The notes below the pieces were generated by a model. It was not told the DNA's origin, did not search any database, and saw only the letters and a list, made by a program, of their open reading frames with translations. Below, piece by piece: positions 7,000-10,213 of a DNA stretch of 64,000 bases. How positions within the stretch are numbered: position 1 is the first letter of the stretch; every line of letters starts with the position of its first letter. Position numbers and translations under genes: made by a program. Origin of the DNA: Orbilia blumenaviensis (Eukaryota > Ascomycota > Orbiliomycetes > Orbiliales > Orbiliaceae); contig JAVHNS010000003.1 of NCBI GenBank assembly GCA_036872755.1, positions 1,612,001 through 1,676,000 on the forward strand, in the 5' to 3' direction.

Positions 7000-7707
7000 T
7001 TACGCTGTCACGCCCAATGTTGGCTTCCCAACTCGTTTCGACTTATAATCCTTAATGGCGGATTTGATGGCGTCCTCAGCAAGCATGCTGCAGTGCAGCT
7101 TGACGGGCGGCAGGCACAATTCTTTCGCGATCTCTGTGTTCTTGATTCTGCCGGCATCTTCGAGCGACATGCCGCGGACAAGCTCAGTGAGATATGAGGA
7201 GGACGCGATGGCAGAACCGCAGCCGAAGGTCTTGAACTTGACATCGCTGATTTTGCCGGTGACTTCATCGACACGGATTTGAAGTTTCATGACGTCGCCG
7301 CCTAGTAAGATGGGTTATGTTAGCCGGCAGATATCAATGGAGGGGTAGCGATGAGCATCGCCCGATGACATACAAGCTGGAGCACCGACGAGACCGGTTC
7401 CGACATCAAGGTCAGCCTTGTTCATTGAGCCGACATTTCGCGGGCGGGAATAGTGATCTAGCAGTAGATATCGCTGTTAGCTTTCACTTCGGCACAATTT
7501 TCACTACCCGGATATCAACATCCGACCAGCGAAATCAACGGAGCACCCCCCGGGAGACCTATCTTTTTCATGATACCCTCTCTTCGGCACGATTGTAACT
7601 GCCGGTAGAGGAGCGATGTGTGAGCGAGGGGCAACAGCGATGAGGTTCGGTCGGAGGGCACCTCGCGAGAGGGTTCTTGTGGCTGTCTGGAGTGTTCTCG
7701 AAAGCAT
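7000..7707 (-). CDS. ISU1: Mitochondrial iron-sulfur cluster assembly scaffold
   Basis: Scaffold on which Nfs1/Isd11/frataxin build [2Fe-2S] clusters in the mitochondrial matrix. Exons 7563-7707, 7374-7463 and 7000-7301 give 178 aa. Residues 1-43 are an Arg/Ser-rich mitochondrial presequence; the mature part starts near YHEKVLDHY. The three cluster-ligand cysteines are visible: C79 (PACGD), C106 (FGCGS) and C149 (LHCSM), and LPPVK (142-146) is the Ssq1 chaperone-binding motif. Intron 2 (7302-7373) is ordinary GTATGT...CTAG. Intron 1 (7464-7562) restores the conserved KVLDHY only if it runs AT...AC; see the separate entry. The start ATG at 7707 was chosen because it opens the presequence; the frame is open further upstream without conservation. 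Nearby genes are unrelated. Confidence 0.93.
7464..7562 (-). other. Candidate AT-AC intron in ISU1
   Basis: Exon 1 ends ...GAA AAA G. The next bases are ATAGGTCTCC; 99 nt later the intron ends ...GATATCTAC, and exon 2 opens TG CTA GAT CAC. Joining G to TG gives Val and restores KVLDHY of the family. A branch site GCTAAC lies 12 nt before the end. No GT-AG pair keeps both the frame and the conserved residues; the in-frame alternatives insert 10 or more foreign residues. The donor looks like an ordinary GTAGGT with its first G changed to A, and the terminal AC would be the matching change. It does not match the U12 donor (RTATCCTT), so a U2-type AT-AC intron is inferred. Confidence 0.75.
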
Positions 7708-10213
7708 GGTGGATATATGGACTGAAGGCAGATATGCGGTATATCGATGTCTTGATGATGGAGGAGCGGTGAGTATATTATGTATCTGCCGGTTAATATT
7801 GATGGGTGACGATAAGAGATATTTTTTTGCCTTCGGATTTGGGGTAATTTGGGGGCTGCTTAATAAAGTTGCTTTGAGGTACGTCAATGCCGAACAAAAT
7901 TCTGAGGCCTCGACAGACCTTGAAAACGGGTCCATCGTTTTGTTTGCTGCCGAGGTCGGCGATTACCGCAACACATGCGCAACACATTTCGCCTTAACGC
8001 CGACTAGGGCCGACTGCAACAAACTCTCCGTGTGGTATTTTTGAATCTTTCTTTCGGAGTATCGGCCACAATCCACGAGACTACGTAATTGATACCCTAT
8101 ACAAATATAAATTAAGCCCGAATAATTCAATAATGAACTGCTTACTCTACTATTACTATATGATATATTGGATAAGCCCTTCTGCTTTCCAAAACTAGAA
8201 TGGTATATTCTAAAAGTATACATGCTAAATCTCTCTTTAACCAATGATAACGTGGTTCTTCCGCGTGCCGCGGAGATAGCCCGAACCCTCTTTCTGGACA
8301 GCTTAAGTAAGTAAGTTGCTGTCTATGCTTAATAGATAGCATCATAATATCGATAGCACACCACTTTCTCGTAATACAAAACCTTTGGGTCTGAGGAAAC
8401 TTCGTCCGGCTGTATGTTTTGTCCTGAGCTCGACCATCTGCACATATCATGCAACTGTATTGATATCATCAAATGCAATCATGACTCGACCTTTATAGAC
8501 TCTGACCATGATTTTGAGTCCGCCACAGACAGTTTGAACAGTCTAAAAAAACAGTCTCGGAAGCGTAGGCGCGGATAATGACACACGGACTCTTCGGGCC
8601 CGCGGAGATGTTACATCGCGTCCTCAACCTGCCAACACGGCAGCTGGCGGATATAAGTTCCGGGCCGAGTACAACACTGTAGTGGCTTTTTAAATTTTTG
8701 TAGATAGTAGATTTCAAAGTTTGTGTCCCCTGACTCGAGTCCCCAAGCGAACGTAATAGTGAGTCATTCTTCTAGTGACTTGTGGTGTAATATTCATATA
8801 TGAGAGCATAGCTACATAGCAGCAGGGTCACAGAGGTTGATGGGCCTCTTGGCCACACGAATACTGACATAATAGATTGGCTAACCATATATATCGCGTT
8901 AGCACCCTCTCTGTTCGGTTGGCGATTCTAAGTTGTTGGTTGCTGGTAGTGATTCCGCAAGTATTTATCTCTTGGTCGTGGTTTTGAGGGCCCTAGGGGG
9001 TACGTCTCATCAATTCGGTGGTCGTAGTTCCATATACTTCGTACAGAAAATCGAAGGGAAGGCACAGATCACCCTTCTTAAGCTTCTTTCACGGGAAGTT
9101 TTCACATGTTGGGCTGGTTCTTGATATTGACATCGACACTGGTCTCGTAAAGTAACCTCTAACTAATATCTACCCCGACATCTTTAAAATCTGCTCGATA
9201 GCCATGACAAAGAAAAACAATCCACCCCATCGATCTCATATATTATCAGGGCGACATAGTGAAAGCAACTATGCGATCCTAGCTAGCACAATATTACTCA
9301 CCATAGGTGGCTATGTCAGTTATCAAGAAGGTTAAACTGTATTTTTCAGAGATATACCTCAACAGCAGTCCAGAAATCGTCATATTCGCACGGAAAATTT
9401 TCACCGTTGAATTTCGATGATATTGGTCCATCTTGTGGTATCCGCTTGGAGATCTATGTTAATGGATTATCAAAATAAAGAAGCTCGTCTCCAAAACTAG
9501 AGCGGCACAGAAGAAGCTCGTCCCAGCACGGCGGCAATTATAAACGAAATACTACATTTCCGATAACAAAGTCTATGCATCGTCATGATTATCATCTGTT
9601 TGATTTGATTTTGTTGCTGCAAAGCCTGTGCATTGTCGATCTTCAAAGCATGACCTTAACATCAACCAATCCGGAACCGGAGCGATCCCTATTAACTATA
9701 GTCAACGAGGGCTCACCGTAGCCCAAGTAAATACATCAATGGAAGCAACATTCGCGGCTCGTCTAGTATATTTCCTGTTTTTTCCAAGCAAATGCCCTAG
9801 TAGAGATCAACTTTCTCTCTAAGCGTTTGTTTCGTATCCTTCGCTATTCATTAAGCAGTCTGATTGAGAAGGCGCTAAGCAGGGTGTGTAGTTAATTTAA
9901 TCACTACCTCGCAAAGAAGGGTGCACCTGCGGGGTATTTATTTATATTCTCAGATTCAATAAATGAGTGACAGCGATAGATGATGCTAACGACAGGGCAG
10001 GGAAGGGTGTCCCTTTCCGCGGGCGGGACCAGATTTGATGATGTATATATATATATAAATGGGGCGAACCCTGGCCTCGTAAACCAACCTCCACGGTGTG
10101 GCCTGGTGAACCCTGCGTATTTGAATGAATCGGTCCTCGTAGACGCGGTTTGGCCGGCTCGGGAGCCTGGCCATCTGTTGCAAAATATAGGTAGCGTCAC
10201 AACAGGTCTGGAA
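7708..10213. other. Spacer upstream of ISU1, no recognisable gene
   Basis: The first few hundred bases serve as the ISU1 promoter and 5' UTR. The rest holds only short open frames on both strands without recognisable domains. One weak copy of a dispersed 24-bp motif lies at 9139-9163. Confidence 0.5.
10071..10094. repeat. Dispersed 24-bp motif, copy 1
   Basis: CTGGCCTCGTAAACCAACCT continuing CCAC. About 22 of 24 bases recur at 60824-60848, and a weaker match lies at 9139-9163. The flanks carry short direct repeats (GAACCCTG on both sides). Function unknown. Confidence 0.4.

Follow-up and report, generated by a model that had tools for sequence, protein, structure and literature searches.

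U2-type AT-AC introns are best known from sodium channel genes, human SCN4A intron 21 being one of them (Dietrich et al., described in PMC2831892), and it has been proposed in the same account that such introns are trapped and hard to escape, as their first and last base must change together (PMC2831892). AT-AC junctions have also been reported, as counts or lists, for organisms without minor introns, among them Fusarium graminearum (PMC3577648), Trichoderma longibrachiatum (69 of 14,305 junctions; PMC4324775), human fungal pathogens (0.09-5.19%; PMC6176087) and C. elegans (PMC3033335), and in fungal annotations AT-AC is given as rarer than CT-AC (PMC7072748). AT-AC introns as such are no novelty among ascomycetes; as far as the text of these accounts was available, neither ISU1 nor a deeply conserved case is named in them. 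What appears to be new is that broken fungal Isu1 models reading into intron 1 would reveal its ends. The first intron of ISU1 in Orbilia blumenaviensis is like SCN4A intron 21 in its AT-AC ends, the G at position +5 and the U2-type donor. Unlike SCN4A intron 21, it lies in a single-copy housekeeping gene of a fungus in which no minor snRNAs were detected, is deduced in five classes of Pezizomycotina and has a fungal CTAAC branch site. With U12-type AT-AC introns it has the terminal dinucleotides in common, whereas the donor and branch motifs differ and searches for minor snRNAs, which had no positive control, gave no match in this genome.

The intron is located in a window of 64,000 nucleotides, meaning the whole stretch of DNA that was analysed, within contig C3 of the genome searched (42.5 Mb, 23 contigs), that of O. 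blumenaviensis, a member of class Orbiliomycetes. The features of the ISU1 locus are as follows:

7563-7707, minus strand: ISU1 exon 1, coding from the conserved-length ATG (MLSRTLQ...RGYHEK + G)
7464-7562, minus strand: ISU1 intron 1, predicted AT-AC intron of 99 nt, phase 1, the removal of which gives protein P0001
7557-7562, minus strand: predicted 5' splice site of intron 1, ATAGGT after AAG, U2-type (+5 G, +6 T)
7476-7481, minus strand: putative branch site of intron 1, GCTAAC; 7477 is the predicted branch A and lies 13 nt from the end
7464-7466, minus strand: predicted 3' splice site of intron 1, TAC
7458-7460, minus strand: TAG six bases past the AC end, a rival AT-AG site that with the same donor stays in frame and loses Val-Leu
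7374-7463, minus strand: ISU1 exon 2 (TG CTA GAT CAC TAT ...)
7302-7373, minus strand: ISU1 intron 2, ordinary GT-AG (GTATGT...CTAAC...TAG)
7000-7301, minus strand: ISU1 exon 3, up to the stop codon

Read on the minus strand, exon 1 ends in ...TATCATGAAAAAG, intron 1 begins with ATAGGTCTCC and ends with GTGAAAGCTAACAGCGATATCTAC, and exon 2 begins with TGCTAGATCAC.... The RGYHEK-VLDHY junction of the ISU1 exons needs the removal of exactly 7562 to 7464. The preliminary description of an intron of 99 nt that starts with ATAGGT, ends with TAC and has a CTAAC followed by 12 nt was borne out by the sequence in each of these respects. ISU1 was the sole NifU_N match in the genome at E <= 0.001, so that no second copy was found to excuse a dead gene; the possibility of a pseudogene was rejected on this basis and because the remaining frame is intact. 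A stretch of exon 1 (AATCGTGCCGAAGAGA) and one of intron 1 (AATTGTGCCGAAGTGA) have 14 of 16 bases in common, which may be chance. An introner origin of intron 1 from the short repeat that it has in common with exon 1 was considered and dropped.

Around intron 1, every excision of 40 nt or more that keeps the frame and leaves no stop was listed, whatever its terminal dinucleotides (4011 in total), and the products were scored with an Isu1 profile built from 181 non-Orbiliaceae proteins. The AT-AC pair 7562/7464 ranked first of the 4011 with 306.4 bits. Second place, at 303.7 bits, was taken by slides of the 99-nt piece by one or two bases (GA-TA, AG-CT), which turn the Val into Leu and to which, to our knowledge, no splice-site pair corresponds. 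The best scores in the other end classes were 295.4 (GA-AG), 293.0 (AT-AG), 291.8 (GG-AG), 288.2 (GT-AC), 286.8 (GT-AG) and 285.2 bits (GC-AG). It had been claimed that no GT-AG choice preserves both frame and conservation, and the scores agree with this, the best of the 10 in-frame GT-AG pairs being 19.6 bits below AT-AC. Similarly, the G at the end of exon 1 and the TG at the start of exon 2 do restore KVLDHY, as had been noted, in what is the best-scoring excision, and the public protein P0001 (ncbi, Orbilia blumenaviensis) is identical to its product (100% over all 178 residues). We infer from the sequence, and from the equality of P0001 with the product, that splicing takes place at 7563/7463 in the cell. 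P0001 starts at the ATG at 7935, 76 residues upstream of the conserved-length start, in an upstream frame that is open. Such a start would hardly be expected from homology alone, and a transcript-based model might give P0001. The N-terminal extension (7935-7708, minus strand) was absent from the other Orbiliaceae models compared and may not be translated.

The splice signals are those of a U2-type intron apart from the ends themselves, with G at +5, T at +6 and a GCTAAC branch site of which the predicted branch A is 13 nt from the intron end. The donor AAG/ATAGGT can pair with U1 (AUACUUACCUU) except at +1, with a G-U pair at +4. The computed U1 duplex of this donor was modest (-4.5 kcal/mol, compared with -11.2 for the same site with GT), that of the GT-AG donor of ISU1 intron 2 was weaker (-1.9 kcal/mol), and a U12-type donor gave only -1.0 kcal/mol, as did ATATGT, to which the models of Drechslerella and Aureobasidium point as donor. 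The U12-type donor (A/G)TATCCTT is not present, ISU1 having ATAGGTCT and not ATATCCTT, nor is the U12-type branch site (TT)CCTTAAC, in place of which ISU1 has AAAGCTAAC; the U12 branch site is given as CCTTAAC in PMC3033335. The earlier assignment of intron 1 to the U2 type is supported in that both donor and branch site are U2-type, and we regard it as very probable that this intron belongs to the U2-type AT-AC introns and that the major spliceosome removes it.

The ends of the intron in related fungi were deduced from protein models in which it had been read as coding sequence. The Val codon is split, with exon 1 supplying G and exon 2 supplying TG. When exon 1 runs on, the codon after HEK combines this G with intron bases 1 and 2, so that GT gives Gly and AT or AC gives Asp; when exon 2 is entered unspliced, the Val position is encoded by the last intron base and TG, so that G gives Val and C or T gives Leu; and when exon 1 is read in the next frame, MRK or MKK is followed by the first three intron bases, GT giving Val and AT giving Ile or Met. 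This rule holds in the O. blumenaviensis window, where read-through gives ...HEKDRSPGG... and ...RYLLLDHY. It was applied to 231 Isu1-like proteins with sequence, for which the best 120 of about 8000 matches per query were listed. Among these 231 listed proteins, 194 showed the joined form H-x-(K/R)-V, in 27 the Val position was occupied by Leu, five had Val without the joined form, P0011 and P0124 had other residues and three were without the region.

Among the 231 listed, all 14 models that run on past HEK without VLDHY had Asp (GAY, which in single cases also fits an AC donor), and all seven that start with M(R/K)K followed by I, M or V and reach LLDHY had Ile or Met (ATN). Unspliced entry into exon 2 gave Leu in 27 of 32 cases in the same set (in single cases Leu also fits a final T), and in 27/27 of these the preceding residue has a codon ending in A, as needed for an AC end. 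The five Val exceptions were P0135, P0138 and P0144, partial models of which this Val is the first residue and which come from the non-ascomycetes Acaulospora, Mucor and Cetraspora, and P0161 and P0162, which begin with M-x-Y-S-x-K-V and are bacterial-looking. The Asp cases were compatible with AT[AG]NGT in 14/14 (6 distinct residue pairs; 12.6% of random pairs), and ATATCC was possible in 0/14 (1.1% of random residue pairs). In the frame-shifted reads AT[AG]NGT was possible in 7/7, ATATCC in 5/7 and ATATCCTT in 1/7 (P0224). Six metagenome proteins read the whole intron in frame (51, 51, 51, 54, 75 and 75 nt), and RCTRAC was possible in 6/6 of them, its first base lying 18 nt ahead of the point where the last full intron codon ends. 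Of the 27 Leu cases, 14 allow RCTRAC somewhere in their final 14 residues and 13 do not; some of these 13 are too short or have had the middle removed, but P0143 and P0224 are neither.

Among the matches listed for Orbiliaceae, representatives of 9 of 13 named clusters contained ...HEKVLDHY; of the remainder, P0011 misreads into the intron (HEK-DMSCPP...) and P0121, P0122 and P0157 are truncated models that begin inside exon 2. The Isu1 protein of Arthrobotrys (Duddingtonia) flagrans, P0002, contains VLDHY, and RNA-seq is stated to have been used to improve introns in the gene prediction for this species (PMC6453484). The named public Isu1 models that share a break at, or close to, one codon were P0011, P0121, P0122, P0157, P0123, P0124, P0143, P0146, P0200, P0203, P0206, P0207, P0209, P0210, P0222, P0227 and P0229. 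The breaking of Isu1 models at one codon is most plausibly due to gene finders that do not allow AT-AC.

These counts have to be read with their sampling in mind. One query carried Leu at the Val position, favouring Leu proteins, and annotation handles GT-AG introns correctly, so that broken models are enriched for AT-AC. A query starting at DHY listed, among its matches, five broken read-ins, all with Leu (P0123, P0131, P0143, P0146 and P0155, of which P0123 and P0155 are nearly alike before intron 2), together with P0135, P0138 and P0144, which begin with Val, and P0124 (Tuber), which is broken in another way. The 27 Leu cases and P0011 fell into nine groups (single linkage, 95% over 60 residues). 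IscU-like loci of 60-75% identity in viral_contigs (29; best 80 of a longer list) were assumed to be non-fungal and set aside, as were those of 60-75% identity in genome_contigs (best 80 listed), which were bacterial by title. The preliminary description had suggested looking for a GT-AG form of the intron in related species; the comparison could be made by way of protein models, and the readable read-ins of Pezizomycotina exclude a GT start and a final G. The read-ins are strong evidence that the intron of these relatives does not start with GT and does not end in G, and good evidence that it is AT...AC.

Both ends of the intron were obtained from DNA in O. blumenaviensis and by read-in in Dothidotthia, Neocucurbitaria, Lasiodiplodia and four Aureobasidium clusters (Dothideomycetes) and in metagenome fungi. 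The 3' end alone was obtained in Maublancomyces gigas (Pezizomycetes), Ascosphaera atra (Eurotiomycetes), Trichoglossum hirsutum (Geoglossomycetes), Didymella pomorum and Coniosporium apollinis, and the 5' end alone in Drechslerella dactyloides; the class placement of Didymella and Neocucurbitaria is our assumption. P0224, which has the same read-in as Trichoglossum hirsutum, also shows the 5' end, with Ile-Ser, a pair compatible with ATAAGT as well as ATATCC. The Tuber brumale model P0124 has a break close to the same codon but of a different kind. Many Sordariomycete-like proteins, several of them encoded on 5-50 kb contigs, read through YHEKVLDHY without a break, which suggests that intron 1 is gone in these sequences; the whole intron has probably been lost in some lineages. 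The Leu and Asp cases span five classes of Pezizomycotina, and the intron is therefore probably old there. It was probably already AT-AC in the shared ancestor of Orbiliomycetes, Pezizomycetes, Dothideomycetes, Eurotiomycetes and Geoglossomycetes, and the AT-AC intron may have had a single origin across these classes. What had been taken for an oddity of one species instead looks old and widely kept, with read-ins in five Pezizomycotina classes.

Of the other explanations for the locus, the one that fares best, though we consider it very improbable, is splicing from the same donor to the TAG at 7458, which would yield, as the main product or beside it, a protein lacking Val-Leu. An intron of 105 nt with a normal-looking AG within reach of the branch site would result, in frame and with a product of 293.0 bits, but this is 13.4 bits below AT-AC, two conserved residues are lost and P0001 is without such a form. 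Work in yeast leads one to expect that an A at +1 goes more readily with a final C than with a final G, which is against AT-AG. An interaction between the first and last intron base is stated in PMC2831892.

Slightly harder still to credit is ordinary GT-AG splicing in a gene with a divergent N-terminus, from the GT at 7526 to the TAG at 7458 or from the GT at 7539 to the CAG at 7474. Both choices keep the frame, and the GT at 7526 pairs with U1 nearly as well as the AT donor (-3.9 vs -4.5 kcal/mol). However, twelve foreign residues would replace Val-Leu (7526/7458) or Val (7539/7474) where the joined form is found in 194 of the 231 listed proteins, the deficit of 19.6 bits applies to the better product, the CAG at 7474 comes directly after the branch site and P0001 contradicts this splicing.

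Removal as a U12-type intron by the minor spliceosome has a very low probability, below that of GT-AG splicing. AT-AC ends are typical of one U12 subtype, and the branch-to-end distance of 13 nt would fit a U12-type intron. Against this stand the donor and the branch site (GCTAAC, not CCTTAAC), as detailed above, and the searches of the genome for U11, U12, U4atac and U6atac and for the PDCD7 protein family, none of which gave a match. U1 and U6 were found by the same search method as was used for the minor snRNAs; these latter searches and that for PDCD7 had no positive control, so that absence is supported and not proved. The check for U11 and U12 snRNAs foreseen in the preliminary description thus gave no match, with no positive control of its own. 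This result agrees with published surveys, in which Ascomycota are reported to be without (convincing) minor introns (PMC10639083, PMC2846911).

Four U1-like genes were found, and since 4/4 have the 5' end ATACTTACCTT with the normal C8, a U1 variant compensating for the A at +1 was rejected. These genes (L004-L007, on C4 and C15) form two pairs and score below the Rfam cut-off. U6 was found in two copies. One (L003, C14:918080-918190, minus strand) apparently contains an mRNA-type intron (GTAAGA...GGTTCGAAC...CTAAC...ACAG) immediately upstream of the ACAGAG box, and one stretch of that intron we take to be B-box-like. The other (L002, C7:1420791-1420893, plus strand) is a U6-like gene that has no intron and has diverged in its 3' part (CACAAGGATGACA, other 3' hairpin).

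Assembly or base-calling errors that mask a GT-AG intron at both ends, for which a change of only two bases is needed, can be practically disregarded, as the two errors would have to strike exactly the two terminal bases of a single intron, P0011, which comes from another species, carries a GT-incompatible residue there and 27 read-ins elsewhere among the 231 listed proteins are incompatible with a final G.

A second candidate was found in PDB1, encoding pyruvate dehydrogenase E1 beta (L009, C4:93031-93092, plus strand, 62 nt, phase 2). It has the form ATAAGT...GCTGAC...TCTAC, with an AG within five bases after the AC end, and its exons join as GVAAQH-S-QDFTAWYG, gapless against the human enzyme. 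The AT-AC product scored 146.7 bits compared with 128.7 for the best GT-AG, and read-through hits a stop at once, making it on sequence grounds a convincing candidate for a second AT-AC intron of the genome. Whole-genome scans for AT-AC motifs, one of which recovered ISU1 itself, showed no excess over a reversed-pattern control (12 matches against 21, 53 against 63, 66 against 66 and 41 against 59), and AT-AC introns are therefore rare at best in this genome. When 54 and 66 donor sites were passed through a coding filter that required flanking frames of 45 or more, or of 30 and 25 or more, residues, ISU1 and PDB1 were the convincing cases that remained, a lower bound given the strict motif and short exons. 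From the scan with 41 matches, 7 + 13 rows with sequence were considered. Rows without a recognised protein were set aside (for example, L013, L217, L226, L239, L255, L264, L284, L299, L316, L319 and L323), and L258, L259, L267, L292, L294 and L302 were by eye better explained as GT-AG introns with the donor a few bases further. Of these, L267, presumably a BCS1-like AAA protein (the names of the L258-L302 candidates are likewise our assumption), looked good until the read-through ERVRYVEYWR was seen.

If ISU1 intron 1 is a U2-type AT-AC intron, U1 and then U6 would recognise AAG/ATAGGT despite the A at the first base, U2 would recognise GCTAAC, and the second splicing step would work with a final C and not G, an A-C contact between first and last base replacing the usual G-G contact. 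A change at a single end would hinder splicing, so that the ends would be locked together, which would explain the persistence of the AT...C form. The pattern seen for ISU1, with ascomycete read-ins lacking GT or a final G and the intron seemingly lost whole elsewhere, fits the proposed trap. A tentative extension, which we think possible and rather less than likely, is that the intron is a fossil: perhaps a former U12 AT-AC intron, taken over by the major spliceosome when the minor one was lost in the ancestor of Pezizomycotina, and trapped since, with loss of the whole intron as its only escape.

An AT-AC intron at this position offers a reason for the same-codon breaks in public fungal Isu1 annotations. 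ISU1 may also provide a natural setting where an AC end would be preferred to an AG lying six bases further on. An ISU1 case spread over five fungal classes would open the questions of when AT-AC arose, whether there has been any return to GT-AG and whether intron loss is the sole exit, and would make the trap idea testable across hundreds of genomes.
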